A stretch of 35,964 nucleotides of DNA from Draconibacterium orientale (GTDB taxonomy: Bacteria; Bacteroidota; Bacteroidia; Bacteroidales; JAIFNL01). This document shows positions 7,678 through 35,601 of the stretch, piece after piece. The position numbers and the translations under genes are program-made. The notes beneath the pieces were generated by a model, which worked only from the letters and a program-made list of their open reading frames with translations, was not told the DNA's origin and ran no database searches. The stretch lies in contig DZBP01000006.1 of NCBI GenBank assembly GCA_022729915.1, forward strand, positions 1 to 35,964, read 5' to 3'. Every line of letters begins with the position of its first letter. The stretch's first letter is position 1.

Positions 7678-7793
7678 AAACAATTAATTTAAAATTAGTT
7701 ACCAATTTATCTCCAAAAACTAAAAAAAATTAAGGATTTTGAAACAAAAAATGAACCAAAATCCAAATTCAAAATTCAAGAATTTATACCTTT

Positions 7794-10700
7794 TTATTTT
7801 TTCAAACTCTTTAAAACTTCTTCAATCGCTTTGTCCAATTGTGGGTCGGTATCAGAAAATCTATCCTTAAAGGTATTTTTTATGTAAACATCTGGTTTTA
7901 CTCCCGTGATTTCCAAATCGTTTCCATTCAAATCGAAACAACCCCAAGATGGTAAACGAGTATATGAACCGTCAACTAAGCCTTGTGCAGAAGTGAAAAT
8001 TATCCAACGATAAGTCTCCGAACCCACTATTTTGCCTAAATTCATTTGTCTAAATCCGGCAGCGGTCATTTCGGCATCGCTTAGTGAATATTCATTGATT
8101 AACAATACAATAGGTTTGTCGGCAGGAGCAAAATTCGGCTGAGGCGACATTTTTCCATTTCTATATTTCCACTGCAAATAAGGCTTTTGAGCCAGAAACT
8201 GCAAAACCTCGTCGTGAACATTTCCGCCTCTATTGTAGCGCAAATCCAAAATCAAAGCTTCTTTTTGCCATGCTTCCGTAGTCATATCTATTAAAAAACG
8301 GTTCAAACTTTCATCGCCCATATCTTTCATGTGCACATAAGCAATTCGCTTATTTCCAGCATTATCCACCTTTTTTTGGTTATTTTCTATCCATTCGTCA
8401 TAAAGTAAATCTACTTGTGCAAAAGTGCTGATTGTATGAAATTTAACATCAAAAGTTGCACTTTTTCGCTTAAAAGTCAATAAAATTTCATCGCCCAAAG
8501 ATGTAGCATTAAAATAGGAATCTCTATTTTTAGATTTATCAATAGAAATTGAATTTACAGCAATAAGCTCATCTCCAGCAAGTACAGAGTTATTGGCTAA
8601 ATCGGCAGGCGATTTTTTAATGATTCGGTTTACAATAAACGGGTTTTCATTATCAAATAATATTCCGGTATTTTGTGATTTAATATTGTAATATGTTTTT
8701 AATTCATCGCCTTCGGTTCTAAAATCGAGATGTGATGCATTTAATTCGCCCAGTAAGTCGTTAAAAAGTGTGGTTAAGTTTTGCCTGTGGCGCACAAAAG
8801 GTAAATAGGCTTCATATTGTTTTTTAGTTTTTTCCCAGTCAATACCATGATATTTAACGTCATAGAAATTATCAGCAAGGGCTGCCCAATTTTCATAAAA
8901 CATTTGAACAAATTCGCTATTCAAGTTTTTAGCAAACTCAAATTCAATATTTATTTTATCTAGCTTATTTTCAGACAGTTTAACTAAATGCAAATTGCCC
9001 GATGAAAGAGCATAATATGTATCTTTAGCTTTAATGATTTGACTGAAAGAAGAAGCAGAAATTTTTTCAGTTTTAGTTTTTTCAAAAGGCGTAAGTTCCT
9101 GTTTCCAAGCTTCATACTCCCAATTATTTTCAACATTGAACAAAATAATTGTTTTCTCTTTTTCTTTAAAAACAATGGGTGAATATTGATTATTAAAAGT
9201 AAGGTCCAGATTTTCCCAGCGTTGCCACATATTTTCCCATTCAAATTTCATAAGAATAACCGAATCTGCTTTTTCTTCTTTTTTAAATAATTTATCGTAT
9301 TCATCTGATTTAAAATCTGTTGCAAAACGATAAAGCGGCATTCTGTACAAAATCACATTTCCATTTCCTCGCGGAAAACCTGCATTGTATCTATTTGCCG
9401 AAAAATATAAATACTTTCCATCGGGTGACCAAAATGGATCTGATTCAGGAACGCCAGTATTTGTAACATTTATATTTGTTTTCGCCTTCAAATCAAAAAC
9501 AAAAATATCGGTTTCAAAATTACGAAAAGCTGTATAAACCAAATAATTACCATCAGGCGAAAAACGAGGAATATCTCCACGAAACCAAAATTCATCTTCG
9601 ATAAGTTTTTCGGTTTTCATACTTGTCAAGTCAACCAAATTTAAGTCGGAATTTCCACTCAAATAAGCTGCTTTATCTCTTTTTGGCGACAACTCTAAAT
9701 AACGTCCATTTTTCTGAAAATCAGTTATTTGCTTCTCAGGTTCTGTTTTATTTGCCGAAATGGTAAATAAATTTCCCCAACCTTTGTTTGTTCGTAAAAA
9801 CAACAGAGTTTCGTTATCTTTAAGCCATTTCGCCTCAGTAACACGTTCATTTTCATCAGTTTTAATCTCCTTTACAAATTTACCTTTCACATCAGAAACA
9901 AACAATCGACCACGCGATACAAAGGCAAGTTTCTTATTATCAGGCGAAACATCGAAGTAGCTGATATTTCCGGCAACTTTAAAGGATTTGTCAATTTGTA
10001 AGGTTTCATTCTTAAAAATATCAACCTGTGGTTTTTCAGTTTTGCCAGTTTCTACATTGTAAACGAATAATTGATAGTCTTTTACAAAAACTACCTTATT
10101 TCCATCGGCACTTACTTGTGGCTTGTAAATAGCTGTTTCAAAGTTAGTTAAATTCTTTTTAATTCCATTTTGAATTGAACACAAATTATAAACTTTGTTC
10201 ACTTCATCAGAAGCAAAATAAAGTTTTCCGGTTTTATCTATGCTCGACCATAAATCTTTGCCGTTGTAAGTTGTAAGTTCTTTGTATTCAGATGTTTTGG
10301 TGTTAAATGATAAAATATTGGGGTTTTGATCGCCAACATATCTTTTTCGGTTAAAATACCTAAAACTTTCGTAAGTTTCGCAAAAATAGAATGTATTTCC
10401 CTTTGTATCTTCGCAAACATTGTGTGCATAATTGAAAAAATCATTGCCCAATATACGAAAATGAGTTCCTCCTTTTCGGCTAATTTTATAGGAACTCACC
10501 ATATTAAATTGCCCCGAATTAAAATAAATATCGTCCGAATTCCAAGCCCAACTATCGACTTGCTCAGAGGCATCAGAATATGTAAGTTGCTGTATATCAC
10601 CACCTTTTAAAGGCATAACGTACACATCGGCATTACCATTTTGTGTAGAAGAAAACGCCAACCATTTGCCATCGGGCGAAATTCTTGGATTCGATTCTAA

Positions 10701-15032: not shown

Positions 15033-18000
15033 CTACAATTTTTCGATGAATGAAATTAAGTTATTCAAGCTTCGCTTTATTTTTGGTAAATCGAAACTCT
15101 GCAAATTGTCATTCAATTCTTCTATAAAAGGCTCAAATTCAAGCAAATCTACAGATTTTACATATTCTTGAAATTTATCTGAAAAAGCTTCGATATCGTC
15201 AATGATAAAAATTTTATTTAAATCATAAAGTTCAATTAATACATTTTTTTTGAGATGTTCAAGATTACTTTCAATTTTCTTTTCTGAAATATTCAAATAG
15301 GTTAATACTCGATTATTTTTTTTTGTGCTAATTGTTTCATTTACAATGTGCTTGTAAGGTAAAAAACTAGCCAATTCAAAAAACAAACTAGCAAGCTGTA
15401 TTGGCTTACTAATGAATGCATTAAACCCTGTTTTCATAATTTTTTCTCTGTCGCTAACAAGAGCAGAAGCAGTAAGTGCAATAATTGGAATTTCGGCAAA
15501 TTCGGGAATTTTGCGAATTTCGATGGCTGCACTAATTCCATCGAGTACTGGCATTCTGATGTCCATCAAAATCACATCGGGTTTATAAAGTTTTGTAAAT
15601 TCAATGGCTTCTCGACCATTTACAGCTGTAATTACATGAACTTGAGTACTTTCCAGAAATTCGGTTATTAAGTTTCTGTTCAGTTCAATATCATCAACAA
15701 CTAAAAGCGTAGAAGCCTCAAATACAATGGAATTGTAATCAAAATTGTGCTGTTCTTGAATTTCTTTTTGTAGGTCTGAAACTTTTACGTCGTAAAGATT
15801 TATAATAAAGTTGCTACCTGTAAGTTGCTTTTTTTCAGCTTTATGAGTGCTCTTCAACTTAATGTCGCCATTCATCATTTCGACTAATCGGGAAGTGATT
15901 GAAAGTCCTAAACCAGTACCTCCGTAATGTTTAGTAGCTTGATTGTCTTGCTGTTCAAATGCATTAAAGATTTTTCGTTGCGATTCTTCGGCAATACCAA
16001 TTCCAGTGTCTTCTACACTGATAACTAAATTTCGAAAATTAGTATTTTCATTACTTGCTTCATTGGTTTCAATATGAATTCGTACAAATCCTTCGTCGGT
16101 AAATTTTATGGCATTTCCTACCAAATTAAAAAGAATTTGTCGCATTCTAATTTCATCAAGCATCATCGAATCTGGCACATTTTCGTCAATATCGATAATG
16201 AAATCGAGATTTTTGTCCTGAACTTTGAGAGAAAAAATATTTTTAATTTCATCTACAATGCCTCTAATACTAGTATAATCGTATTCGAGTTTCATTTTGC
16301 CAGCTTCAATTTTGGACAAGTCGAGAATGTCATTAATAATCATAATCAGGCTTTTTCCGCTCGACTGAATAGCATCTAAATAACTTTTTTCTTTCAAACC
16401 CTCAACTTTTGTAGCCAATAGTTCACTAAAACCTACAATTGCATTCATAGGAGTTCTAATTTCATGGCTCATATTAGCCAAAAATTCGCTTTTAGCTTTG
16501 TTTGCATTGGTTGCTTCGAGTTTAGCTTGCTCTTTTTCAATAATTTCCTGCTTTAGTTTTTCGTTAATCTTTAATAAATTTTCTTTTTGCCTAGTTATTA
16601 ATATTTCTTGCTTTTCTTGCTCATCTTGAACTAATTGCATTTGTTCAATAATTTGTTTTAATTCTTCTTCTTGCGCCAAAAGCTGGTCATTTTTAAGCCA
16701 CAATTCTTTTCTACTAACTTCTGCCGTTTTCACCGCATTTTCAAGTTTTTTCTCTTTGGTAATCAACATAGTGTTCGCTTGCTTCAATTCATCGCGCTGA
16801 TTTTTGAGCTCTTGCTGAATTTTAGTAAGTTCAAGCATTTTTTGTTCGAGCTGAATTTGTTGATTTTGCTGAATTTTATTCAACACTTCAAGCTCTCTTT
16901 CGTTTTGTTTGATTTCAGTTATGTCGGTTTTGATAAGCAACAAACCTGTGTCATTCAAATAGTTTATAAAAAAAGGAGCTTTTGTAATCTGGAATATTTT
17001 CTCTTGCTCATTTATTTTTTCAATCGATTTGTACACAATCATACCTTTATTAACGACCTCAATTTCTTGCAGTCTTAATTCATCGGCTTTGTCAATTTGA
17101 TAAAAATCGTAATCCGTTTTTCCTACCAAATTTTCGACCTTTATATTCAAGTTTTCAGCAGCTATTTTATTAGCTATCAAATATTTACCAAGAGAATCTT
17201 TTAAAATAATCTCGGCAGGAAAGAAATCGAGAATTTTAGACAAAAGCCGTTTATTTTCATCTAACTGATTTAGAACCTGAGTAGCTTTAATAGCGTCAAA
17301 TTCTTTTAATCTAATCATTTCCTCTTGCGTAGTAATAAGTTCCTCTAAGTTTTGCTTCAATTCTTCTTCCTGTGCCCTGAGTTCTTCGTTATTAATTTTT
17401 AGTTCTTTTTGAGCATCAGCATATTGGTTAAGTATTTTCCGCAAAATCAACTCCTTATTACTCATCACTTTGTTCGCCTCTATAAGTTCACTTTCTTTTA
17501 TATTTAATTGTTCTTGGGCTTTTTTTAATTCAATAAGCTTTAATTCAAGCTTTTCCTTCAATTTTTGAGCTTCATTTTGTTTGTAAACAAGTTCGGTTAT
17601 GTCAAATTGAATTCCAAGCAATCCTTTTTCATTGATGAATTCAATAAAAAAAGGCTTTTTGATGGTTCTAAATATAACTTCGGTGTCGTTTAGCATTTCG
17701 GTTGAAATGTATTCTCGTTTACCTTTTCTTATTATATCTTGCTCTATTTCAGCATTTTTCTTAGCATCTTCGATAGGGTACAAATCAAAATCAGATTTTC
17801 CAATCAATTCAGATACTTCAACTCCATGAAATTCAGCAACTTGATTATTCATTAGAACAAATCTACCTCGCGCATCTTTTAGGAAAACATTTGCCTGAAT
17901 CTCATTCAAAATACTGTTAATCATATTTTTAGAAGATTCAATCTCTTTAATATGAACATTATTTTGCTCAATTTCTAATTTTTTTAGTCGCTCCATTTCC

Positions 18001-19088
18001 TTCAAACTAAGCTCATGTTTGCGAAGTGTCTCATCAACAAGTACTTGCTGTTGTTCCATTTCTTGTTTATACGATTTTATTTCTTCTAAAAGTCTTTCGG
18101 TATGGGTATGCACTCTCGACGAAAACAATGAAGCAGAAATATTGCTGGCTAATTTTTCAACAAATGATATTTTAGAAGGAGAAAATTTTTTGAAAGATGC
18201 AATTTCAATTACTCCAAGTAATTCATTTTCAAGCAACAATGGTACAATCAATAAAGCATTTGGGTTTGCTTGCCCTAATCCAGAAGTTATTTCAATATAA
18301 TCTTGAGGTATTTCGGTAAGGTAAATAGTTGATTTTTCTAAAGCACATGTACCAATTAAACCATCGCCAATTTGCACTTTCTTTTGCAAATATTTCTTCT
18401 TTCCATAGCCATAAAAGCTAATCAATTCGAGTTCTTGGCGCATCTCATCATTTTCAGAGAAAATAAACAATCCGGCTTGATTTGCATCAATATAATTTAC
18501 CAGATTACTTAAAATTTTATTAGCTAATATATCTATTCTTTCATTGCTTTTTCTTAAAATATCGTTCAAAATAGCCAAACCTTCGTTTGTCCAATTTCGC
18601 AAAGCTTCTTCTTCCTTCCGTTCTATTTCAAAGTTTTTGTTGCGTTTAAGGTTTTCATGCATTTTAATGAGTAATTGCCTGAAAATATTGGAAGTATTTG
18701 ACGTATCGTAAGTTATATCAATGTTTCCATTAAGTAATTCGGTAGTAATTTGAATGTTTTCATTAAATCCGTCGATAAATTTATTTATATCCGAACTTAA
18801 TTTTCCAATTTCGTAGTTGCTTGTATGATTTATTGATTTTGCTAATTTTCCTTCTGAAAGTTTTTTGGTAGTTTTACCTATCTCTTCTATTCTATCAAAA
18901 ATACCTTGCAATTGCAAAACTATAGTAAGAAATACGATTATGCCTGAAAAAACGATACCTAAAATAATGGTTATTTTTGATTGACTAAAAAAAACAAGAA
19001 TTGTAGATAAAGTTATAATAATGAACAATATAACTGCTCCAATAACAGTTAAAAATTTAATCAGAAGTTTGTTATTAGAAGAATTCAT
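15033..19088 (-). CDS. Large membrane hybrid sensor histidine kinase (TM-HAMP-GAF-PAS-PAS-HisKA-HATPase-REC)
   Basis: The protein has 1351 residues. Two N-terminal membrane helices (about 8-32 and 38-60) are separated by a very short loop, so there is no periplasmic sensor. A HAMP-like segment follows (about 60-115), then a GAF domain (about 170-325), a coiled coil, two PAS domains (about 388-500 and 609-720; both with KDxxGxxxxxN and a GKxDxDxY motif), and a long coiled coil (about 735-860). HisKA has H875 in [16 protein letters not shown], HATPase_c lies near 980-1095, and REC has D1176 in [13 protein letters not shown]. The last 105 residues are helical and hydrophilic without an obvious HPt histidine. 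Intracellular ligands or redox state could be sensed by GAF/PAS. It lies 252 bp after the SpoIIE gene; a TAGGTTTG at 19217-19210 might give it its own start. Confidence 0.93.
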
Positions 19089-19340: not shown

Positions 19341-21692
19341 TTAAGCAATTTTCAAACCCATAACTAAAATATCATCAATTTGCTCGCTATTTCCTTGCCA
19401 TTCTTTAAGCGTTTTTTCTAAAACCAATTTTTGCTCGGCAAACGATTTGTCTTGCATCATCAATAAAAGTCGCTTAAAAGGTTTCGACATAAATTTATTT
19501 TCGCCAGTTTCGTCAAATTGATCAACATAACCATCTGAAAACATGTACAATGCATCTCCAGATTTCAGTTTTTCTTCGTATTTGGTGAAGCTTTCTTTTT
19601 CGCGCGAGTAAATACCAATTGGCATTCTATCAGGCTTAAAATGAATGAGTTCGCCATTTCTAATCAAATACAAAGGGTTGTAAGCTCCGGCATATTCTAA
19701 TGTATATTTTTCAACATCAATCACACAAAGTGCCATATCCATACCATCTTGTGCTTCATTTTCTTTGCCTCGCTGTCTAAGAGAATTTTTAATTTTTTCT
19801 CTTAATTCATTCAAAATTATGTGAGCTTCAATTTTTTCGATATCGGAATTGTTCAAAATATCGTTCAGAAAAGAAATTCCTAGCATACTCATCAAAGCAC
19901 CCGGAACTCCGTGTCCTGTGCAGTCAGCAGCAGAAACAAATATTTTATTTCCCTTTTGGCGCACCCAATAAAAGTCGCCACTTACTATATCGCGAGGCTT
20001 CAAAAGTATGAAATGGTCGCTTATAAAATCGCCACCAAAATCGTCGGTTGGCAAAAGTGCCCTTTGAATTTTACTGGCATAAGTTATGCTATCGGTAATG
20101 CTCTTATTTTTATATTCAATTTCTTCTTTTTGATGTGCAAGTAATGTATTTTTGTGCTTCATTATTCGAGCATTTCTCAAAATTACAACCGAAAGCATTA
20201 TCATCAATATTATAACTATTGCGGCAGAATAAATTAAAACTTTTTGCCTATTTATTTTTGCTTCATTTGCTAAGTCTTTTTCTTTCTGTTCAAATTCAAT
20301 CTGTTTTTGCTTTTTATCAAATTCATATTGCATCGAAAGTTGAGTAATTTTCTTGGTATTTTCATCATTATTAAGTCGCTGATTGATAGAATTTTGCTCA
20401 ATAGAATACTCAAAAGCTTTTTTATAGTTTTTCATTCCGGCGTAAGATAAACTAAGCAAATTAGCTGAAGCGTTTAAATGTTCGAGCGAGTTGGCTTCTT
20501 TTCCAAATTCATAAGCTTGTTGAAGATGAAAAACTGCTTTTTGAAATTGGGCTAATTCGTAATAACATTCACCTATTCCAATGTTTTCGAGAGCAACTCC
20601 TCTCATGTCTTGAAAGTATTCTTTAATTTCTAAGCTTTTTTGGTAATTTAAAATAGCTGATTCGTATTTTTTGCTTTCCTTAAAAAGAGTAGCAATGTTA
20701 GAATAACAATCTGCTTCGATGCGGGCATCACCAATTTCTTTGGCAATTATTAGGCTTTTTGAATAATTATCTATGGCTTTTTTAGCATAAGTGCTGTCAT
20801 TATCCGATAATTCTTTATAAACATTTCCAATATTATTCAAAACTTTAGCAATTCCGGGAGAATATTTCAATTCTTCATTGATTTTCAGAGATTTTTGATA
20901 ATAAGACAAAGCATCATCTAGATGTTTCATTCGTTCCGAAATACTCCCAATATTGTTGTAAGAATCAGCCATTGCTGATTTATCGCCCAAAATTTCGTTT
21001 ATTTTTAAGCCTTCAATGTAATTTTCGAGTGCTTTTTTGTAATTTCCTTGTTTGTTGTAAATAATTCCAATCACATTGTAGCAAGAGGCTTGCCCTTTTT
21101 TAAAATTTATTTCGGTCGAAATATCTAAACCTTTGTTTAAATTAACCAATGCTTCAGAATAATTGCCAATGTTTTCATACAAGCTGCCAATTGTATAATA
21201 AGATGATGCAATTCCTTCTTTATCATCGAGTTGAATATTAATATCTAGCGATTTTTTACTGTATTCGAGGGCTTTAGTTGTGTTGCCAATATACGAATAA
21301 ATATTACCCAAATTGTTTAGGGTAGAAGCCATACCAAGCTTATCGCCAATGGATTGCCTAAGGTCAAGTGCTTTCTGATAAAAATAAAGACCAGAATCAA
21401 TTTTAGAAGCATAATAACAGGCATTGCCTAAATTATGAAATGCGGCTCCTTTTCCTTTTTTAAAATTTATTTTTTCTGCTAATTTCAACGCTTTTCGAGC
21501 GTAAACGGCTGCTTCGTCTTGATTATAAGGCACAATTTCATACGATAGTTCGTTAAAAATTTTTACTTGAAGGCTATCGATTTTTTGCACTGTCAGAGCT
21601 TTCTTCAAACTGTCAATTTTAGTTTGCGAAAACAATGAAAATGAACTAATTAATAACAAAAACAGCAAAATATATTTTTTTGTAGTACTCAT
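19341..21692 (-). CDS. TPR-repeat SpoIIE-family PP2C-type serine phosphatase, membrane-anchored
   Basis: The 783-residue protein starts with a signal peptide (cleavage near SLFSQ, residue 22), followed by about nine to ten TPR repeats at about 50-440 with repeated phrases such as GNIYSYIGNTTKALEYS. A membrane helix lies at about 484-505, a short coiled coil follows, and a SpoIIE/PP2C domain fills about 535-783 (ALLPTDDFGGDF, SGDFYWV, SAADCTGHGVPGALMSMLG, MFSDGYVDQF). Thus the TPRs are periplasmic and the phosphatase is cytoplasmic. Relatives dephosphorylate anti-sigma-factor antagonists or other Ser/Thr phosphoproteins. No STAS protein or HATPase anti-sigma kinase is seen next to it. The gene lies between two hybrid kinases on the same strand (117 and 252 bp gaps), suggesting a shared pathway. 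Confidence 0.92.
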   Translation of the reverse strand: MSTTKKYILLFLLLISSFSLFSQTKIDSLKKALTVQKIDSLQVKIFNELSYEIVPYNQDEAAVYARKALKLAEKINFKKGKGAAFHNLGNACYYASKIDSGLYFYQKALDLRQSIGDKLGMASTLNNLGNIYSYIGNTTKALEYSKKSLDINIQLDDKEGIASSYYTIGSLYENIGNYSEALVNLNKGLDISTEINFKKGQASCYNVIGIIYNKQGNYKKALENYIEGLKINEILGDKSAMADSYNNIGSISERMKHLDDALSYYQKSLKINEELKYSPGIAKVLNNIGNVYKELSDNDSTYAKKAIDNYSKSLIIAKEIGDARIEADCYSNIATLFKESKKYESAILNYQKSLEIKEYFQDMRGVALENIGIGECYYELAQFQKAVFHLQQAYEFGKEANSLEHLNASANLLSLSYAGMKNYKKAFEYSIEQNSINQRLNNDENTKKITQLSMQYEFDKKQKQIEFEQKEKDLANEAKINRQKVLIYSAAIVIILMIMLSVVILRNARIMKHKNTLLAHQKEEIEYKNKSITDSITYASKIQRALLPTDDFGGDFISDHFILLKPRDIVSGDFYWVRQKGNKIFVSAADCTGHGVPGALMSMLGISFLNDILNNSDIEKIEAHIILNELREKIKNSLRQRGKENEAQDGMDMALCVIDVEKYTLEYAGAYNPLYLIRNGELIHFKPDRMPIGIYSREKESFTKYEEKLKSGDALYMFSDGYVDQFDETGENKFMSKPFKRLLLMMQDKSFAEQKLVLEKTLKEWQGNSEQIDDILVMGLKIA

Positions 21693-21809: not shown

Positions 21810-24068
21810 TTATTTTTTTAAAATCGTCAAAATTTCTTTTAATTCTACCACTCCTTTGTTGGTTTCACTTATAAAATTAGCCAACATTTCAGGATAATCC
21901 TCTTTGCGTTCTCTTGCTTTCACCGCATTTTCAAAAAGTTGCATATCGGCTCGTAACTTGTTCATTCCCACTATTGCAACAGATGATTTGGCTGAATGTA
22001 CGTACAATTTCAAATCGTCCCACTTTTCATCTCTAATTGCTTTGTTAATGTTAGTAACATATTCAGAGATTTGATCAATAAACATTTCAATCATTTCGGC
22101 AATAATTTCATTGTTATCGCCTGCCATATTTTTTAAATAATCTAAGTTTGTAATTTTTTGTGATTCGTTCAGAAATTCTTTATTTATAGCCTGCTGCAGA
22201 ATTTTTTTTATCAAAACTTCAGCTTTAAAGGGCTTTGCAATATAGTCATTAATTCCGGCTTCAAAACTTCTATCAATTTCAGATTTTGTAACAGCCGCCG
22301 TAAGTGCAATAATTGGAACTAACGAATGAGGCTCTTTCAAAAGCGTACGAATTTGTTTAGTAGCCTGATAACCATCAAGTTCTGGCATGTGTAAATCCAT
22401 CAAAATTACATCAAACAAATTGTTGGTAGCTGCTGTTACGGCTTCTTTTCCGTTTTCAACAAGGGTTACCGTCATATTGTTTTTTAATAGAACTTCCTTA
22501 GCAAAAACTTGATTTAATTTATTATCTTCAGCTAATAAAACGTTCAATGTTTTATTAACTGCTATTTTATTAAATTTTGGTGTATCTATTTGGTTTGCAA
22601 CCATATTTTTAGTATCTGTAACAACTCCAAAAGGAAGAGTAACACAAAAACTGCTACCTTCGCCAAATTTGCTTTCTACAGAAATTGTGCCGTCCATCAA
22701 ATGCACGAGTTGTTTAGAAATAGTTAATCCTAAGCCAGTTCCACCATATTCGCGAGTAGTTAAGTTGGTAGCTTGATTAAATTCTTCAAAAATAGCTTCA
22801 AGCTTGTCTTTCATAATGCCAATACCAGTATCAATGACTTCAAATTCAATAATTTGAGTGTTTTCAAGAACAGATTTTAATTTAAATTTCATTGAAATAC
22901 CGCCTTTTTGTGTAAACTTAAATGCGTTTCCAACCAAATTAGTAAGTATTTGATTTAAACGGACTTTGTCGCCAATTACAAAATTTGGAATAGCATCATC
23001 TATTTCAATGGTAAAAAATAAGCCTTTTTGAGTCATTCGTTTTTCAAAAATATCTCGGTATTGATACACCAATTTTCTAAAATCGAAAGCTTCATTCACA
23101 ATTTTCACTTTTCCGGCTTCAATTTTAGAAAAATCGAGAATATCATTGATAATTACCAGAAGATTATCGGCAGAAATACGAATATTTTCAAGATATTGAA
23201 ATTGTTCTTCGCTTAGTTCAGTTTCAGCCAAAAGGTCAGTCATTCCAATTACTCCATTCATTGGTGTTCTTATTTCGTGGCTCATATTTGCCAAAAACTG
23301 CTCTTTAATTTTGAGGCTGTATTCGGCTCTGTCTTTTGCTATTTTGAGGTCTTTATTTTGTTTTCCAAGCCTAGAAATCATTTCATTAAACACATACGAA
23401 AGCTGTCCAATTTCATCTTTGGAATTGTAATCACTTCGGATAGAATAGTTGCGAGTTTCAGCAATATTTTTCATCAAGTCGGCTAAATTTATAATAGGTT
23501 TGGTAATTAAACCCTGAAAATAAATAGCCATAATAAGCGATATAATCAATGCCAAAATTATTATCAATGAAATAACAATCAAAAATTTAGTTGTTCTTTC
23601 TTTGTATTCGTCTAAATTGGTTTGAATAAAAATAGTTCCGTGCGTATGGTTTTTGTAAATTATGGGCTTAGTGATAATAATTTTGTCTTGCGAAAAAATA
23701 ATGGTATCGGTAGGAAATTCAAGTTTTTCGGAAGCTCTGTAGCCAATTCCTTTTTTGGCATAATCAGCAAACGAAAGATTATTAACATTATAAATAGCAG
23801 CCATTTCAATGTAAGCATCAGAAGAAAGCAATTGCAACGATTTTTTTGCGTCTTCTTTACCGCTCATAAAAAACTCCAAATTTGCGGCATTATTATTTCC
23901 AACAGTTTCGGCTAAAATAGACAAATCGCGTAAAGCCTTGCGTTTAAATTGCTGTTTGTCATAAATAATGAACAAAATGGACGACACAAATAAAGCAAAA
24001 GCACTCAAAATAAAGAGAAAGAAAACAATTTTCTTTTTTATAGATAAATTTCTGAATCGAGCAAGCAT
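21810..24068 (-). CDS. CHASE8-like hybrid sensor histidine kinase with REC and HPt
   Basis: The 752-residue protein has a membrane helix at about 13-35 and a periplasmic domain of about 120 residues that looks like CHASE8 (LAETVGNNNAANLEFF, LLSSDAYIEMAAIYNV, FADYAKKG). A second helix lies at about 160-185, then HAMP (186-237). HisKA has H264 in [16 protein letters not shown], followed by HATPase_c, REC with D558 in VILMDLHMPELDG, and a C-terminal HPt with H691 in HSAKSS. CHASE8 is the input domain of the diguanylate cyclase YfiN/TpbB, which is controlled by periplasmic YfiR. A YfiR-like gene lies directly upstream (88-bp gap). The phosphate can pass His-Asp-His to another receiver, possibly the REC-kinase at 13678. 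The CHASE8 call is by eye and should be tested. Confidence 0.92.
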   Translation of the reverse strand: MLARFRNLSIKKKIVFFLFILSAFALFVSSILFIIYDKQQFKRKALRDLSILAETVGNNNAANLEFFMSGKEDAKKSLQLLSSDAYIEMAAIYNVNNLSFADYAKKGIGYRASEKLEFPTDTIIFSQDKIIITKPIIYKNHTHGTIFIQTNLDEYKERTTKFLIVISLIIILALIISLIMAIYFQGLITKPIINLADLMKNIAETRNYSIRSDYNSKDEIGQLSYVFNEMISRLGKQNKDLKIAKDRAEYSLKIKEQFLANMSHEIRTPMNGVIGMTDLLAETELSEEQFQYLENIRISADNLLVIINDILDFSKIEAGKVKIVNEAFDFRKLVYQYRDIFEKRMTQKGLFFTIEIDDAIPNFVIGDKVRLNQILTNLVGNAFKFTQKGGISMKFKLKSVLENTQIIEFEVIDTGIGIMKDKLEAIFEEFNQATNLTTREYGGTGLGLTISKQLVHLMDGTISVESKFGEGSSFCVTLPFGVVTDTKNMVANQIDTPKFNKIAVNKTLNVLLAEDNKLNQVFAKEVLLKNNMTVTLVENGKEAVTAATNNLFDVILMDLHMPELDGYQATKQIRTLLKEPHSLVPIIALTAAVTKSEIDRSFEAGINDYIAKPFKAEVLIKKILQQAINKEFLNESQKITNLDYLKNMAGDNNEIIAEMIEMFIDQISEYVTNINKAIRDEKWDDLKLYVHSAKSSVAIVGMNKLRADMQLFENAVKARERKEDYPEMLANFISETNKGVVELKEILTILKK

Positions 24069-26967: not shown

Positions 26968-29046
26968 ATGAATTTGAAAAAAATTGCATATGTTATTTTT
27001 ATACTCTTTTTAATAAGTTTCTCGGTTAATGGGCAAACTCCGGTAAGCATTGATAAAAAAGAATTTAAATATAACTCAGACGACGATGCCTTTAAGCTTG
27101 CTTGGCAAAGTATAAAAGCTGGAGATGAAGCTTTTGCAGCGGGTTCTGCATATTATCACATTGCTTTAAAATACTATTTGGAAGCAGTAACTTACAACGC
27201 AAAAAATCCAGAACTGAACTATAAACTTGGGATTTGCTATTTATTTTCGCCTCAAAAAGAAAAAGCAGTTGCTTTTTTAGAAAAAGCAAGCGAAAAACCC
27301 GATTTAGCACCCGATTTTAGGTTTTGGTTGGGCAAAGCTTACCATGCAAACTACGAATTTGACAAAGCAATAGAGCAATACGAAAAATTCGTTAATAGCT
27401 TACCACCCAAGCTAATGCAGCAGTTTGAAGCAGAAGTAGGCGAACCAATTTTGTTGATTGAAAATTGCAAAAATTCAAAAGAATTAGTAGGTTCTAAACT
27501 AAATATTTTTGTTGATAATGTTGGAAGTAGTGTAAATACAGCTGCTGCTGAATATAGTCCACTCATTTCGGCAGACGAATCGCTGCTGATTTTCACTTCG
27601 CGCCGCGAAAATACAACCGGCGGAAATCGTTCGTTGAGCGACAATGAGTTTTTTGAAGATATTTATTTTTCAAAAATTGGTAAAAACGGAGAATGGCTAA
27701 CCGCTTTAAACATTGGCGACAAAGTAAATACTAAAGAACATGATGCCACAGTAAATTTAACAGCTGATGGTCAAAAACTTATAATTTATAGGAGTTCTTC
27801 GGGCAATGGCGATTTGTTTGAAAGTAAGCTTAATGGTAATGAATGGTCAAAACCGCGTCAATACTCTAAAAGCTTGAATACCAAATATCACGAAGCTTCA
27901 GCTTGCCTCTCACCCGATGAGCAAACGATTTACTTTGTATCAGACAATCCCTCGAATAATTATGGAAAGCACGATATTTTCAAAGCCACACTGAATAAAA
28001 ATGGCGATTGGGACAATATCGAAAATCTTGGCAATGTGGTAAATACAAAATTAGATGAAATTTCGGTATTTCTTCATCCCGATGGTAGAACGCTGTATTT
28101 TAGCTCAGAAGGACATAATTCGATGGGAGGTTACGATATTTTTAGCACTACATTACAAGAAAATGGCACTTGGTCGAAGCCTGAAAATATTGGAAATCCG
28201 ATAAATACACCCAACAACGAAGTATTTTTTGTAATTTCGGGCAACGGAAAACATGGCTATTTTGCATCAAACCAAGTTGGCGGCAAGGGTGAAACCGATA
28301 TTTACCGAATTACTTTTTTAGGCGAGCCAAAACCAGCTCTTCAAAGCAATGAAGATAATCTAATGGCAAGTTTGACGATTCCTATAAAAGAAAAAACAAT
28401 TGAAAAGGCAATAGAAATTAAAAAAATTCGCTTAACCATTTTAAAAGGAATTATAGCCGATTCAATAACAAATCAACCACTTGAAGCTCAAATAGAAATT
28501 GTTGATAATTTAACCGGAAAACTTATTTCGAGTTTTACGTCAAATTCAACAACGGGTAAGTATTTAATACCTTTACCTTCAGGTTTCAATTATGGAATTG
28601 CAGTAAAAAAAGACCAATATTTATTTCATTCTGAAAATGTAGATATTCCTAATACAACTGGTTATCAAGAAATTAATAAAGACATCAAACTTCTTAAATT
28701 CTTAAAAGGTTCAGGAATTATTCTTAGAAATATCTTTTTCGACACAGGAAAATCTATTTTAAGAGAAGAATCCAATACCGAGTTAAATAGATTGTGGGTT
28801 CTTTTGAATGAAAATCCAAGTTTAAAGATTGAAATACAAGGACATACAGATAATGTAGGCGGCTTAGAATACAATAATAAACTTTCAACCAGTCGCTCAA
28901 AAGCTGTAGTCGATTATTTGATAGGCAAGGGAATTGACTCTAACAGGCTCACTTTCAAAGGTTATGGCTATTCAAAACCACTAACTACCAACGAAACACC
29001 CGAAGGCAGACAAATAAACCGTAGGGTTCAATTTCAAATTTTATAG
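26968..29046 (+). CDS. PorE-like OmpA-family protein (TPR, PD40 propeller, CRD, OmpA), copy 1
   Basis: The 692-residue protein has a signal peptide (cleavage near FSVNGQ, residue 23; no lipobox cysteine). A TPR-like helical region (about 45-165) is followed by a PD40 propeller (about 190-450; YSPLISADESLLIFTSRR, LSPDEQTIYFVSD, LHPDGRTLYFSSEG). A carboxypeptidase-regulatory-like beta-sandwich lies at about 485-560 (LKGIIADSITNQPLEAQIEI), and an OmpA C-like peptidoglycan-binding domain at about 575-692 (FFDTGKS, GHTDNVGG near 626, RQINRRVQF). This domain order matches PorE of the type IX secretion system, which ties the secretion complex to peptidoglycan. Many paralogues with this architecture exist in Bacteroidota, so a direct T9SS role is not certain. 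A homologue follows 102 bp downstream. Confidence 0.88.
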   Translation: MNLKKIAYVIFILFLISFSVNGQTPVSIDKKEFKYNSDDDAFKLAWQSIKAGDEAFAAGSAYYHIALKYYLEAVTYNAKNPELNYKLGICYLFSPQKEKAVAFLEKASEKPDLAPDFRFWLGKAYHANYEFDKAIEQYEKFVNSLPPKLMQQFEAEVGEPILLIENCKNSKELVGSKLNIFVDNVGSSVNTAAAEYSPLISADESLLIFTSRRENTTGGNRSLSDNEFFEDIYFSKIGKNGEWLTALNIGDKVNTKEHDATVNLTADGQKLIIYRSSSGNGDLFESKLNGNEWSKPRQYSKSLNTKYHEASACLSPDEQTIYFVSDNPSNNYGKHDIFKATLNKNGDWDNIENLGNVVNTKLDEISVFLHPDGRTLYFSSEGHNSMGGYDIFSTTLQENGTWSKPENIGNPINTPNNEVFFVISGNGKHGYFASNQVGGKGETDIYRITFLGEPKPALQSNEDNLMASLTIPIKEKTIEKAIEIKKIRLTILKGIIADSITNQPLEAQIEIVDNLTGKLISSFTSNSTTGKYLIPLPSGFNYGIAVKKDQYLFHSENVDIPNTTGYQEINKDIKLLKFLKGSGIILRNIFFDTGKSILREESNTELNRLWVLLNENPSLKIEIQGHTDNVGGLEYNNKLSTSRSKAVVDYLIGKGIDSNRLTFKGYGYSKPLTTNETPEGRQINRRVQFQIL

Positions 29047-29148: not shown

Positions 29149-31200
29149 ATGAAAAAAACAATTTTATTTTTCATTGCACTGCTTTTCATAGCAAACATAA
29201 GCTATGCACAAGAGCTTCTGTCGATTAACAAAAAAGAGTTTCTCATTAAAAATCAGCCTGATAGCGGGGCATGGAAAGCACTAGCTGAAGCCGAAAAATT
29301 ATTTAAGCTTCACAAAGCAAATGCTCAAAAAGCTGCAAATTTGCTTATCAAAGCCGATTTGTACAATCCAGAATTAGCTAAACTAAAATACAATTTAGGA
29401 TTGTGCTATTTATATGCTCCAGAAAAAAGTAAATCGGCAAAATATTTTGAAGAAGCTATCCGATTAAACGAATTTGTAACCAAAGAAGTGCGCTTTTTGT
29501 TAGCCAAAGCTTACCAACTTAATGGCGAATTTGACAAAGCCATAGCTGCATACGAAAGCTACAAGCAAGCAGTTGCGCCTAGTGAATTGCCAAAAATTGA
29601 GTCAAAAATAGACTTTTTGATATTAGAATGCTCAAAAGGCAAAGAATTTATGGCAATTCAAAAAAGATGTTATATCGACAATTTGGGTAGTGCCATTAAT
29701 ACTGAATATAATGAGTACAACCCTTTCTTTGATGTTGAAAATCAGAAACTTCTATTCACTTCGCAAAGAGAAAATACAACAGGAGAAAAAATAAACAAGT
29801 ACGATAACAATTATTACGAAGATATTTTTGAATCAGAATTTGCAAACGAAACTTGGAATACAAGCCAAAACTTAGGAAAAATATTTTCGACAAAAAACAA
29901 TGACGCATTAGTTGGTTTAAATTCATCAGCCACAAAAGCGTTCATTTACAAAGGATTAGAAAATGGCGGTGATTTATTTATATCTACAAAAAAAATAACA
30001 ACTTGGTCAAAACCAATTAGTTTAGGAAACAGCATTAATGGTAAAAAAAGTAAAGAAAATTCAGCAACTCTTACAAACGACGATTCAACTCTCTATTTTA
30101 CAAGCAATCGTGAAGGTGGTTTTGGAGGTTTCGATATTTATGTAAGTTACAAGAAATCAAATGGAAAGTGGGACAATCCACAAAATTTAGGTTTCGAAAT
30201 AAATTCGCCTGCCGATGAACTTTCGGTGTGCCTTTCGCATGATAACCAAACGCTTTATTTTGCTAGCAATGGTTTAGCTGGATGCGGAGGTTACGATATT
30301 TTTAAACTCGAAAAAAATGAAAACGGAAGCTGGTCAAATCCAATAAATTTTGGAAGTCCAATAAATTTGGCAACTAACCAATTGAGTTACTATCCATTAC
30401 CCGATAATAAAACAGCTTATTATACTAGTGAAAACGAAAATAGTTTGGGATTTTTAGATATTTATAAAATAACATTCTTAGGTGACGAAAAGCCTTCTTA
30501 CCAGACAGTAGAAGATAATTATTTGTCATTTTTAGAATTAGCGCCACCCAAAATTGAACTTTTTCAGCCAGTACTATCTACTGTTTTATCAGGAAAAATA
30601 ATAAGTAAACGTACAAAATTTCCTATTTCGGCAATAATAGAGATAGTAGATAAAGAAAAAAATGAGGTAATTTATTCGGAAAAATCAAATCTGGAAACAG
30701 GAATGTATGAAATATCGCTTCCAGCAGGAAAAAATTATAGTATTTCGGTAAAATCTGATGAATATATGTTTGCATCTGACAATATTGAAGTACAAAAATC
30801 GGTAAAATTTCAACGATTTGTTAAGAATTTTGAGCTTTCTCCAATCGAAATTGGTGCTGCTATAGTACTAAAAAATGTCTTTTTTGACAGTAATGCATCA
30901 ATTTTACGTTCTGAGTCGTATGCCGAACTAAATGTTTTATCGCAATTACTTAAAAATAATTCAACAATAAAAGTAGAAATTTCAGGACATACCGACAATA
31001 AAGGAAGTGCATTTTCTAATAAAAAATTATCGACCGAACGAGCTATTGCAGTAGTTAATTATCTAGTAAACACTGGAATAGATAAGAATAGAATTGTTTC
31101 AGCTGGATATGGTCATGACAAACCAGTAGCGGATAACAAAACTCCCGAAGGAAGACAAATTAATAGAAGAGTAGAAGCCAAAATTATTTCATTAAACTAG
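29149..31200 (+). CDS. PorE-like OmpA-family protein, copy 2
   Basis: The 683-residue protein is a paralogue of the preceding gene with the same order of parts: signal peptide (MKKTILFF to SYAQ), TPR-like region (about 40-165), PD40 propeller (about 180-440; DDSTLYFTSNREGGFGGFDI, LSHDNQTLYFASNG), CRD-like beta-sandwich (about 475-555) and OmpA C-like domain (about 565-683; FFDSNAS, GHTDNKGS near 613, RQINRRVEA). Shared phrases with copy 1 include the start of the mature protein (LLSINKKEF against VSIDKKEF), SQRENTTG and GRQINRRV. The first propeller blade appears less regular than in copy 1. The pair looks like a tandem duplication with considerable divergence. A hairpin terminator candidate follows at 31210-31253. 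Confidence 0.88.
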   Translation: MKKTILFFIALLFIANISYAQELLSINKKEFLIKNQPDSGAWKALAEAEKLFKLHKANAQKAANLLIKADLYNPELAKLKYNLGLCYLYAPEKSKSAKYFEEAIRLNEFVTKEVRFLLAKAYQLNGEFDKAIAAYESYKQAVAPSELPKIESKIDFLILECSKGKEFMAIQKRCYIDNLGSAINTEYNEYNPFFDVENQKLLFTSQRENTTGEKINKYDNNYYEDIFESEFANETWNTSQNLGKIFSTKNNDALVGLNSSATKAFIYKGLENGGDLFISTKKITTWSKPISLGNSINGKKSKENSATLTNDDSTLYFTSNREGGFGGFDIYVSYKKSNGKWDNPQNLGFEINSPADELSVCLSHDNQTLYFASNGLAGCGGYDIFKLEKNENGSWSNPINFGSPINLATNQLSYYPLPDNKTAYYTSENENSLGFLDIYKITFLGDEKPSYQTVEDNYLSFLELAPPKIELFQPVLSTVLSGKIISKRTKFPISAIIEIVDKEKNEVIYSEKSNLETGMYEISLPAGKNYSISVKSDEYMFASDNIEVQKSVKFQRFVKNFELSPIEIGAAIVLKNVFFDSNASILRSESYAELNVLSQLLKNNSTIKVEISGHTDNKGSAFSNKKLSTERAIAVVNYLVNTGIDKNRIVSAGYGHDKPVADNKTPEGRQINRRVEAKIISLN

Positions 31201-31280: not shown

Positions 31281-34268
31281 ATGAAAAGCAAAAAAATTCA
31301 AATCATATTTTTATTATTGATTATAATTGGTGTTGTTATTATAAGTATTTATTACTTTTCTCGAACAAAAAAAGCAGCAATTTTACCTTCTTTCATGCAA
31401 AACAATGAAATTTGGGTAGAAAAAGAGGTACAAAAATTAACAGAAAAAGAAAAATTGAGCCAACTTTTATTTATAGAAACAGATAGTTTTTCTGTAAATT
31501 TCGCTCCCGGGGCACTGGCTTATAATGGCAGTAATTTTTCTGATTTTGAGGTATTTAAATCTAAATTCGACCGAAAAAAAACAATAGCACCAATTTTTGT
31601 AAATCTCTTTTCAGATGGCTTATGTCATTTTAGCAAAGAACATACAAAGCTCAATATCAATCATTTATTTGCAAACGATGATTCTATTTCTATGAGAAAT
31701 TGGAGTGAGTACATTTTAAATTTAAATTTATCATTATCCCAGAATTTTCATGTTTTTTCGCTTCTCAATTTGCGCCCAAATCTGGAATACGATTCTATTT
31801 TTTTTGCAAACCTACTGTTCAAAGCAATTGAAACAACTCAGTTAAGTGATAGTCAGAGAGTTTTAAATGGTCATTGGTGTAATTTTCCGCTACAAAATCT
31901 TAAAAAAGATAGTTTGACGTATCTGCATGAAGTTAATCTCACAAAAGAGTTAATTAAAAACAAAATACCTGCTTTATTTTTAAAATTTCCATCAATCACC
32001 TTCATTAAGTATTTACGAAAAAATTTAAATTACAAAGGTTTGATTATTAGCGATTTCAGAAATAAAAAAACTCCCCAAACAGATGAATTGGTTCAATTTA
32101 TAGAAAACGGAAATACTTTTTTTCTTGTTTCAAAAAATTTAGGCTCTTTCAGTAAAAATATGTTTAAGCTCGAAAACCAGATAAATAAAGAAAAACTAAA
32201 TGAACAAGTAAAAAAAGTACTTTTGGCAAAAAAATGGATAGAAAAATCACCTTCAAAAAAACAAAACAATCTGTGTGAGGATAATTCATTCAAACTTCAA
32301 ACCAACAAAATAATTGAAAATTCGATAACACTTGTTAAAAATTCAGACAAAATAATTCCGTTAGTGTCAGTTAAAGAAAATATTGTGGTAATAAACATTG
32401 GAAAAAATTCAGATTCATTCAATGCGATGCTCCGAAATTATATTGAATTTTCAACCATAACCTTTGATGTAAATAAAAAACCGGCAAAACAAAAAGCGGA
32501 TAAAATTATTATCACTTTAAATACCCATAGCTTAAACGAAAATGAAATTAACTACATTCAAGAAGTAGCTAAACTACTAAATATCAAGCACAAACCAATT
32601 ATTATAAATATAGGTGAAGTTAAAAATTTAAGTAAATTATCATCATTTCAAACCATTATTCAATGCTATGGAAATTCAAATTTAGAACTCGAATTGAGTG
32701 CGCAAGCGATTATGGGTGGAATTGGATTAAAAGGCTGTTTACCAAGTTATTATGAAGAAAAAAAACTTTTCCAAAGCTCATTTACAACTGAAAAAAACCG
32801 ACTGAAATATTCGGTAGCTGAAGAAGTAAATATGAGTTCAACCAAGTTGGAAGTTATTGACAGCATAGCACTTGCAGAAATTTCGGCAGGAGCATTTCCG
32901 GGTTGCCAAATATTTGTAGCCTACAAAGGAGTAGTTGTTTACAATAAACAATTTGGCTATCATACTTATTCAAAGCAAGATAAGGTTAAAGAAACCGATT
33001 TATATGATTTGGCATCGCTTACAAAAATTTCGGCTACAACTTTAGCTGCGATGAAAATGTACGATTTAAAAAAGATAAATCTATCAACAACTTTGGGTAA
33101 TTGCATGAAAAATACCAAAATAGATTATACCCGTATAATTCCCGATACGATTATAAAAATCGATACTTTGCTACTCAAAGAAATACCAAATCTGAAAAAA
33201 CTTTTGGCTTCTACCGATACTATAAATCTGAACGATAGCACGATTATAACTTTTGATACAATTATTGCAAAACTAACTCCCAAACGAAATATTTTTAAAG
33301 TTCCTTTGCAAGAAATGCTAATACATGAATCAGGAATTATGCCGGTTTTGCCAATTTTACCCTATATTTTGTATAAAATACCACACAAACGTAAAAGTTT
33401 TAAAATAAAAGCTTCGGTATTTGCTGATGTAAATGATAGCTTACAAAATGAGCCAAAATACGATACTATTTATTCTATCGACAAAAAATTAAAGCGTTCT
33501 GAAGCTTTTTCGAGGTATTATTTAAAAAATAAAAGCGATTCGTCGGTAATGCAAATAGCTGAAAATATGTTCTTTAAAAATACTTATAGAGATACTTTGT
33601 GGATAGAAACAAAGCAGCTAAATGTGGCTCAAGAAAAAAAATACCAGTACAGCGATGTAAACATGATTTTGGTGCAAATGGCAATTGATTCACTCAATGG
33701 CGAAAATATGAACGATTTTTTGAAAAAAACATTTTATCAAGATTTGGGTTTAAAAAATACCTGCTTTCTTCCGTTGAAAGAGCACAAAAAAAATGAAATA
33801 GTTCCCACTTCGCTTGATAAAATATGGCGCAATCAACTCCTCCAAGGTTATGTTCACGACCCATCTGCTGCCATTTTGGGCGGAATTGCAGGAAATGCAG
33901 GATTGTTCAGTACTGCCAAAGAACAAGGAATTTTGTATCAAATGCTTTTAAATAAAGGCACTTACGGAGGAACTCGATATTTAAGTAAAGAAGTTGTAGA
34001 GCTTTTTACCAAACGCCAGGAGGGTCATGTTAGAGGTTTAGGCTTTGAAATTCAATCTTCTAAAGCAATAATGAGCCAGTTTGCTTCTAAAACAACTTAT
34101 GGGCACACCGGCTTTACAGGAAATTGCGTTTGGGTTGATCCTGAAAATGAACTGGTATTTGTATTTATTTCAAATAGAGTGTATCCAGATAGCAAAAATG
34201 GAAAAATAAACGGGCATAAAGTACGACAAAAAGTACACGATGCCGTTTATAAATCAATAATTCGTTGA
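31281..34268 (+). CDS. Membrane-anchored fusion of a degenerate GH3 (NagZ-like) domain and a class C beta-lactamase-like serine hydrolase
   Basis: The 995-residue protein has an N-terminal membrane anchor (about 6-27). Residues about 45-335 follow a GH3/beta-N-acetylglucosaminidase fold pattern (EKLSQLLFIET; YKGLIISDF with D258 at the nucleophile position), but the KHFPGHGDT motif with the catalytic histidine is absent. Residues about 340-500 resemble the GH3 C-terminal domain (SITLVKNSDKIIPL). Residues about 517-995 are a serine beta-lactamase/PBP-like hydrolase with SLTK (S579, K582), YSD (Y790) and HTG (942-944). An insertion of about 60 residues rich in Asp and Thr (about 612-672) separates the SLTK helix from LQEMLIHESGI. 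GH3-lactamase fusions are common in Bacteroidota and are thought to act in peptidoglycan turnover; here only the hydrolase half is likely active. Confidence 0.88.
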   Translation: MKSKKIQIIFLLLIIIGVVIISIYYFSRTKKAAILPSFMQNNEIWVEKEVQKLTEKEKLSQLLFIETDSFSVNFAPGALAYNGSNFSDFEVFKSKFDRKKTIAPIFVNLFSDGLCHFSKEHTKLNINHLFANDDSISMRNWSEYILNLNLSLSQNFHVFSLLNLRPNLEYDSIFFANLLFKAIETTQLSDSQRVLNGHWCNFPLQNLKKDSLTYLHEVNLTKELIKNKIPALFLKFPSITFIKYLRKNLNYKGLIISDFRNKKTPQTDELVQFIENGNTFFLVSKNLGSFSKNMFKLENQINKEKLNEQVKKVLLAKKWIEKSPSKKQNNLCEDNSFKLQTNKIIENSITLVKNSDKIIPLVSVKENIVVINIGKNSDSFNAMLRNYIEFSTITFDVNKKPAKQKADKIIITLNTHSLNENEINYIQEVAKLLNIKHKPIIINIGEVKNLSKLSSFQTIIQCYGNSNLELELSAQAIMGGIGLKGCLPSYYEEKKLFQSSFTTEKNRLKYSVAEEVNMSSTKLEVIDSIALAEISAGAFPGCQIFVAYKGVVVYNKQFGYHTYSKQDKVKETDLYDLASLTKISATTLAAMKMYDLKKINLSTTLGNCMKNTKIDYTRIIPDTIIKIDTLLLKEIPNLKKLLASTDTINLNDSTIITFDTIIAKLTPKRNIFKVPLQEMLIHESGIMPVLPILPYILYKIPHKRKSFKIKASVFADVNDSLQNEPKYDTIYSIDKKLKRSEAFSRYYLKNKSDSSVMQIAENMFFKNTYRDTLWIETKQLNVAQEKKYQYSDVNMILVQMAIDSLNGENMNDFLKKTFYQDLGLKNTCFLPLKEHKKNEIVPTSLDKIWRNQLLQGYVHDPSAAILGGIAGNAGLFSTAKEQGILYQMLLNKGTYGGTRYLSKEVVELFTKRQEGHVRGLGFEIQSSKAIMSQFASKTTYGHTGFTGNCVWVDPENELVFVFISNRVYPDSKNGKINGHKVRQKVHDAVYKSIIR

Positions 34269-34419: not shown

Positions 34420-35601
34420 ATGTCAAAACAAACAGACGAAAGACTTATTGTTGTAAATGAGATATTTAGCCCTTCAGCTCCTATTGAAAACATTAGCCTT
34501 TTTATAGGAAGAGTAGAGCAAATAACTAAAGTAAAAGAAGCAATAGAAGAACGTGGTCAGCATGTTGTAACCTTTGGAACACGAGGTGTTGGTAAAACAT
34601 CTCTTGCCAATGTAGTGCGCGATTTGTTCAAAAATGTGAGTACAGTAAAAGTAACTTGCAACCGCACAGACGATTTCAGAAGTATCTGGGATAGAGCTTT
34701 TAGCAAAACAAAGTTTGTTATCAGTGAGCGTAATGTTGGTTTCAATGCCAGTGTAAAAGACCAAGTAATAAGGCTTTATTTACCTGAAAAAGAAGAAATT
34801 ACAGCTCACGATATTGAATCAGTTCTTACTGATGTGTACAATACGATGCTGATAGTTTTTGACGAATTTGACAGCATCACCGATGAGAAAACCAAAATAA
34901 AAATGGCGGATACTCTCAAATCACTTTCTGATAATATTTTTAATATAACCATTATGATTATTGGGATTGCAGATAGTGTAGATGAACTTTTGGGGCATCA
35001 TTCGTCGCTCGAAAGATGTATCAAACAGATTCATATTCCACTGATGAGCGCTGATGAATCGTACCAAATAATTGAAAATAACTTACCGCTTGTGGGTCTA
35101 AAAATTGAAAAAGATGTAGCCGATAGAATTGTAGAATACGCATCTGGTTTTCCACATTATGTTCATTTGCTTTGCAAATATTCTAGTCAAATGGCTATAA
35201 TTCAAGACGATAATACAATAAAACACGAGCACTTGAATTGGGCAGTAGATGAAAGTATAAACAATTCAAATCATAGTATAAAAACAGCTTATCAATTGGC
35301 AGTAAAGTCAAATAGCCGTAAAAAAAATCAATTTGAAGATGTCATTTATGCTTGTTCGCTGATTGAAAATGATGATAGACTTTTTAGCTCCGAAGACGTG
35401 ATTAAAATATACAATAAACTAACCTCGAACGAAAACAAACCCGAAACCATCAATTACAATTTAGGGATGCTTTGTAAAGAAGAAAGAGGAGAAATACTTG
35501 TTAAAGCTGAAAAAATAGGCGAACAGAAATATACTTTCAAAAATCCTTTTATGAAAGCCTTTATAAAGCTAAAAGTACATTCAGAAAGTAATGAGGTATA
35601 A
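34420..35601 (+). CDS. Orphan AAA+ ATPase, Orc1/Cdc6-like, with C-terminal winged-helix-like region
   Basis: The 393-residue soluble protein begins with a FIGR element (28-31) typical of AAA_16/Orc1-type ATPases. Walker A is GTRGVGKT at 53-60, Walker B VFDEFD at 146-151, sensor 1 IMIIGIAD near 185-192, and an arginine-containing HHSSLERC segment follows. The lid region (ISADESY-like, then IVEYASGFPHYVHLLCKYS) is at about 210-260. The last 100 residues (IYACSLIENDDRLFSSEDVIKIYNKL) look like a winged helix. Such proteins occur alone or beside partner proteins in plasmid, phage-defence and regulatory contexts; none of these partners is visible here. It has its own short leader and ends in a strong terminator, so it is probably monocistronic. 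Function unknown beyond ATP-driven switching. Confidence 0.85.
   Translation: MSKQTDERLIVVNEIFSPSAPIENISLFIGRVEQITKVKEAIEERGQHVVTFGTRGVGKTSLANVVRDLFKNVSTVKVTCNRTDDFRSIWDRAFSKTKFVISERNVGFNASVKDQVIRLYLPEKEEITAHDIESVLTDVYNTMLIVFDEFDSITDEKTKIKMADTLKSLSDNIFNITIMIIGIADSVDELLGHHSSLERCIKQIHIPLMSADESYQIIENNLPLVGLKIEKDVADRIVEYASGFPHYVHLLCKYSSQMAIIQDDNTIKHEHLNWAVDESINNSNHSIKTAYQLAVKSNSRKKNQFEDVIYACSLIENDDRLFSSEDVIKIYNKLTSNENKPETINYNLGMLCKEERGEILVKAEKIGEQKYTFKNPFMKAFIKLKVHSESNEV

Follow-up and report, generated by a model that had tools for sequence, protein, structure and literature searches.

We identified in Draconibacterium orientale a fusion protein of 995 amino acids in which a serine hydrolase half keeps its catalytic residues and a NagZ-type GH3 half appears to have lost them, a conclusion well supported by alignment with relatives. 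The gene lies in a window (the whole stretch of DNA that was analysed) of 35,964 nucleotides. The pseudo-GH3 lineage it represents, carried on a serine hydrolase with kept catalytic residues, is genuine; the parent fusion was already known. To our knowledge, NagZ-serine hydrolase fusions are common in Bacteroidota and almost uncharacterised. The explanation that we favour, and regard as moderately probable, is a membrane-anchored periplasmic serine hydrolase with a pseudoenzyme NagZ half as scaffold, derived from an old duplication of the fusion. The parts of the gene are listed below.

31281-34268, plus strand: whole gene, pseudo-GH3/serine hydrolase fusion, 995 amino acids, ATG start (open reading frame and homologues)
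31284-31364, plus strand: N-terminal hydrophobic helix, residues 2-28, likely membrane anchor or signal (sequence and DSSP of the model)
31416-32234, plus strand: degenerate NagZ-type GH3 barrel, residues 46-318 (fold match, catalytic columns lost, no Pfam match)
31866-31892, plus strand: NGHWCNFPL, residues 196-204, at the place of K-H-F-P-G-H in intact NagZ (alignment)
32052-32054, plus strand: D258, in the column of the nucleophile Asp, which is D307 in the intact paralogue and D318 in B. subtilis NagZ (alignment)
32268-32795, plus strand: GH3 C-terminal alpha/beta sandwich, residues 330-505 (models, fold match)
32823-34265, plus strand: serine hydrolase, PF00144, class C beta-lactamase/PBP4B-like fold, residues 515-995
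33015-33026, plus strand: S579-L-T-K582, nucleophile Ser and Lys (alignment)
33117-33290, plus strand: clade-specific insertion of about 58 amino acids, approximately residues 613-670 (alignment)
33648-33656, plus strand: Y790-S-D (alignment)
34104-34112, plus strand: H942-T-G (alignment)

PF00144 is the sole Pfam domain of the protein (93.7 bits against a cut-off of 27), and no Pfam match to GH3 (PF00933) was found in it. No lipobox Cys was seen in the N-terminal helix. The order of GH3-like barrel, sandwich and serine hydrolase is that of RmNag3 of Rhodothermus marinus, which comprises GH3 domains 1 and 2 and a beta-lactamase domain and which was called the only characterised enzyme of such architecture in 2020 (PMC6987092). 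The hydrolase half has S-x-x-K, the Tyr motif, H-x-G and the fold of its family; SLTK, YSD and HTG, retained according to the original prediction, were located at S579-K582, Y790 and H942.

Catalytic columns of the barrel were read from a MAFFT alignment of 138 rows, with the intact paralogue from the host genome (L006:5387-8362) as reference. RmNag3 is active on chitooligosaccharides, has an Asp nucleophile and an Asp-His dyad (Asp227-His229) as acid/base, and binds GlcNAc through Lys216 and His217 (PMC6987092). By position, the dyad is D231/H233 in the intact paralogue and D232/H234 in B. subtilis NagZ (3bmx), where the nucleophile is D318. The K220, H221, H225 and H233 columns are occupied by W199, C200, L204 and L212 in the 995-aa protein, the D231 column by D210, and the D307 nucleophile column by D258. 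Thus, the nucleophile Asp is present, and the K-H of KHFPGHG (sugar binding at -1; W199-C200 here) and the Asp-His dyad are not. Unlike RmNag3, the protein does not have the full GH3 catalytic set, with Lys, His and the dyad His lost by sequence.

The loss of KHFPGHGDT, its replacement by NGHWCNFPL and the Asp at position 258 had been predicted from the sequence alone, and all were confirmed by the comparison with intact Bacteroidota fusions. One detail had to be corrected: the acid/base His was thought to be within KHFPGHGDT, and it belongs instead to the D-S-H motif; both motifs are lost. In the MAFFT register, H198 of NGHWC sits two residues off the KH column; a shifted register would put H198 on H221, and K220 and the dyad His would be missing even then.

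The alignment rows come from 147 matches in the fetched loci, 144 of which cover the hydrolase; removal of 5 short rows and 1 duplicate left 138, which are the best-ranked relatives in the searches rather than a random sample. By barrel, 87 rows are intact, 31 degenerate and 20 without one, or 17 when three rows that begin at a contig edge (L076, L084 and L159) are dropped; the tail of a normal barrel is present in L076. The hydrolase S, K, Y and H are kept in all rows except one (137/138). The 995-aa protein belongs to a clade of 26 rows (SH-aLRT 100, in a tree built on sandwich and hydrolase columns only), 25 with a scrambled barrel and one (L058) in which the barrel is deleted and the hydrolase residues are kept. 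A second, slower tree of 82 rows, without long branches, has a corresponding 24-row clade (bootstrap/SH-aLRT 100/100). Members are spread over many families of the order.

Within the clade, the dyad His column holds His, and the Lys column of the K-H pair Lys, in 0/26 rows. Asp was found in the dyad Asp column (D210) of 16/26 rows and in the nucleophile column of 6/26 (the 995-aa protein, two congeners and three other rows), and D258 is thus little evidence that any function remains. The clade has lost the Lys, Arg and His columns that bind sugar, and no conserved His/Asp pair was found in the 26 rows. In the intact group the dyad His is present in 86/87 rows (Lys in L173). The hydrolase residues are kept in 25/26 clade rows. 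The exception, L051 (G087:C12), has S, E, H and H at S579, K582, Y790 and H942; with the hydrolase Lys and Tyr lost too, it is possibly a doubly dead protein, as judged by its residues.

The degenerate barrel is more than chance, as the same state is seen in full-length open frames of two congeners and the barrel is scrambled in 25/26 clade rows. Without the three contig-edge rows, 8 switches of the barrel between the intact and the lost state are required on the tree, and well-supported branches force at least 5 of them; the root was not inferred, and counts of this kind do not distinguish gains from losses. The switches are most naturally read as losses, since NagZ in general has the residues of the intact rows. 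We conclude that the barrel decayed once in the clade ancestor and that several further independent losses occurred elsewhere.

A scan of genome contigs returned mostly intact fusions among the matches listed. Among 31 genomes chosen for carrying a clade member, 27 also encode a NagZ barrel at E<=1e-50, so the dead copy is usually extra to a live one; a barrel at this threshold is absent from G036, G087, G171 (85% complete) and G254. Six Pedobacter/Mucilaginibacter-type genomes with a barrel-less hydrolase (L111, L077, L092, L101, L096 and L125) encode a separate protein of 568-587 amino acids (L180-L185) that aligns to the L006 barrel and sandwich, with KHFPGHG and DSH in 6/6. In these genomes the two activities lie on two proteins, with a sandwich on each, and this looks like reciprocal loss after duplication of the fusion.

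Gene fission next door was considered as the cause of barrel loss and rejected: among the 20 barrel-less loci, several of them short, barrel matches occur in 2; the one on the L160 locus is an intact fusion in its own right, and the other is L076, which is cut by the contig edge. A relative close to the clade, L110, is in two overlapping frames (7154-9410 and 9391-10273; 42% and 52% identity) that match residues 245-699 and 719-993 of the query, owing to a real break or an assembly error.

Three members of the fusion family are encoded in the host genome (3.5 Mb, 299 contigs, 82.9% complete). The L006 copy is a canonical fusion of 991 amino acids with KHFPGHGDT, DSH and ITDA, a PF00933 match at 2.7e-79, and YbbD/NagZ (3bmx) as the closest PDB entry (3.9e-63). 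It is homologous to the 995-aa protein over the full length and shares its hydrolase catalytic residues; the 995-aa protein differs in KHFPGHG, DSH and ITDA, each intact in the canonical copy, and in the insertion, which that copy does not have. The third copy (L007:5051-6931, minus strand; 626 amino acids) consists of sandwich and hydrolase only. The copy at 31281-34268 is a state between the intact and the barrel-less copies.

The AlphaFold2 model of the full protein has a mean pLDDT of 79.6, with 129 residues below 50, and Foldseek ranked GH3 enzymes and beta-lactamase-fold esterases jointly at the top. A second model, of residues 36-505 alone (pLDDT 77.2), has the GH3 barrel and sandwich fold: 50/50 listed fold matches are GH3, among them 5vqd (Z 26.5) and B. 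subtilis NagZ (3bmx; Z 23.9 over 460 residues). Intact GH3 relatives were in the alignments behind both models and may bias the fold towards GH3; the GH3 fold of this half is thus supported, not proved. D210 lies just before a predicted helix (212-226) and may be a helix cap.

Purifying selection acts on all parts of the protein, and the barrel is neither constrained like an enzyme nor free. Its mean pairwise identity is 0.19 in the clade versus 0.50 in the 87 intact rows; for the hydrolase the values are 0.46-0.50 versus 0.44-0.46 (0.42 in the clade stretch 676-700). The degenerate barrels of the host genome and congener G002 share 44% identity, as against 82% for their canonical barrels. In two comparisons, omega (Nei-Gojobori, with dS often above 1 and near saturation, so that values are rough) is 0.187 (bootstrap 0.12-0.28) and 0.222 (0.09-0.38) for the degenerate barrel and 0.056 and 0.075 for the hydrolase; the canonical barrel has 0.084. 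Residues 120-220, including NGHWC, have the lowest barrel omega in both within-genus comparisons (0.09-0.12), near the canonical value, so a genus-level site may exist there.

The GH3 half had been proposed to be a glycan-binding or structural module. The structural option fits better: 90% identity is reached by none of the barrel columns in the 26 clade rows, against 65/331 in intact fusions, so the clade as a whole has no conserved binding site. A role of the dead barrel in glycan binding (lectin-like) or sensing, by which muropeptides or glycan strands would be delivered to the hydrolase, is unlikely in our view. The kept fold, the selection on the barrel, the low omega of residues 120-220 within the genus and the dyad-column Asp in 16/26 rows (if D210 is not a helix cap) are in its favour. 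It is contradicted by the loss of the sugar-binding columns and by the small number of barrel columns that reach 70% (8 only: D47, K58, P104, G253, L254, L314, A316 and K317).

It is likewise unlikely that the barrel has no role and is slowly decaying as a neutral relic. Constraint is indeed relaxed, as omega is about 3-4 times as high in the barrel as in the hydrolase, and the barrel is wholly deleted in other lineages and in L058. However, omega is well below 1 (upper bounds 0.28 and 0.38), 174-283 aligned barrel residues persist in 25/26 clade rows, and no stop was found in any match to the insertion profile described below (37/393 order genomes matching).

Continued glycosidase activity through other residues is very improbable: D258 at the nucleophile position, with H198 nearby, is found in three congeners, but the clade-wide counts (dyad His and Lys each 0/26, nucleophile 6/26) and the lack of a conserved His/Asp pair in the clade argue against it. 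A frameshift, chimera or misassembly, conceivable in a draft of 299 contigs at 82.9% completeness, is refuted by full-length open orthologues with the same neighbours in two congeners (79% and 60% identity) and by the 25 degenerate rows within one clade.

In a 20-row branch of the clade, the segment from S-x-x-K to Y-S-D is longer by about 58 residues, as seen on inspection of 15 branch rows and of L058. The 96-aa stretch around the insertion has a mean column identity of 63% (14 rows). The other branch, of six rows (L059, L061, L156, L052, L143 and L141), has a degenerate barrel and no insertion; thus, barrel decay preceded the insertion. A profile of the insertion region (14 rows) matches 37/393 genomes of the order; the match is at E<=1e-13 in 29, where the open frames are 932-1079 amino acids long, and no stop codons were found inside the matches in the 37 genomes. 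Among 296 genomes drawn from the phylum, it matches the host genome alone, so the insertion is largely an order-level feature of the sample. The model is of low confidence there (pLDDT about 40-55), which may reflect the few insertion-bearing rows in the structure alignment.

The solved folds closest to residues 507-995 are beta-lactamase-fold esterases (EstG at Z 36.1, macrolactin acyltransferase and ester hydrolase EH7; Z 34.5-36.1), which differ in substrate and carry no GH3 domain. The substrate of Caulobacter EstG is a cyclic glucan, a ring of six glucose units (PMC11389396). Among NCBIfam models, PBP4B (NF002968) scores best on the hydrolase of each of the three paralogues (146, 147.8 and 144.3 bits), always far below its cut-off of 385, and E. 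coli PBP4B (YfeW), unlike the 995-aa protein, has no GH3 part. E. coli yfeW/PBP4B lies in the murQ MurNAc-recycling operon, and amiE lies next to nagZ in B. subtilis, where AmiE is a MurNAc-L-Ala amidase working with NagZ in sequential muropeptide breakdown (PMC5061867). B. subtilis NagZ (YbbD) shares the GH3 two-domain fold with our N-terminal half; unlike the 995-aa fusion, it is catalytically active and separate from AmiE (YbbE). We take AmiE to be of the PF00144 type. The substrate of the hydrolase is likely a cell-envelope ester or amide, and a muropeptide amidase or carboxypeptidase is a first, unproved guess.

The host genome has a NamZ-type gene (PF07075, 270 bits) and MurQ (over its cut-off); thus, a MurNAc-recycling route is likely. 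The neighbour of the L006 fusion was considered as mpl and rejected; the model that fits it best is murC, with matches below cut-off to two pieces that a run of N separates, and we regard it only as a Mur ligase-like gene. A literature search for a dead GH3 or a NagZ/beta-lactamase pseudo-fusion, to which subscription papers were mostly outside, found no report of a degenerate clade and RmNag3 as the sole characterised fusion.

The neighbourhood was rejected as a clue to function, as the OmpA/PD40 pair, TPR protein and AAA ATPase are common only to the two congeners; no neighbour family recurs widely beyond the genus at the loci compared. Directly downstream, 34420-35601 encodes an AAA/STAND-like ATPase, conserved in the two congeners; its matches to the anti-phage ATPase IetA/IteA are weak and cover only part of the protein, and the match from NCBIfam is below cut-off. 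Just upstream are tandem paralogues (26968-29046 and 29149-31200), also found in the congeners; the second has TPR/PD40/OmpA matches, with the CHU_0125 OmpA and PorE models below cut-off. Further away, two hybrid histidine kinases and a TPR/SpoIIE phosphatase form a cluster (15033-19088, 19341-21692 and 21810-24068, minus strand).

Under the scaffold explanation, an ordinary Bacteroidota NagZ-serine hydrolase fusion would have undergone an old duplication, with the canonical copy keeping both residue sets. In the other copy the glycosidase has lost Lys, His and the Asp-His dyad, and its active-site loops would have shrunk, while the fold stayed. Barrel and sandwich may then act as a scaffold or spacer that keeps the hydrolase off the membrane. 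The hydrolase would act on cell-wall fragments, as a MurNAc-L-Ala amidase, DD-carboxypeptidase or ester hydrolase, and the conserved insertion between S-x-x-K and Y-S-D could alter its specificity. L058, with hydrolase residues kept and no barrel, counts against this role, and the scaffold is thus not always needed; the low omega of residues 120-220 counts against a pure scaffold. A cell-wall role is weakened by the absence of a conserved gene neighbour outside the genus and by the low PBP4B score. It is quite unlikely, yet conceivable, that these clade members form a novel type of cell-wall hydrolase under regulation: the former glycosidase would sense a wall fragment or protein, as receptor or allosteric partner, and the insertion would give a new specificity that canonical fusions lack.

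Within the family, NagZ halves that are intact, dead or deleted form a natural series, in which the hydrolase is the part that evolution keeps. The series provides ready comparisons for the function of the hydrolase and for the GH3 fold as a pure scaffold. It also cautions that relatives alone are an unsafe basis for naming such genes glycoside hydrolases.
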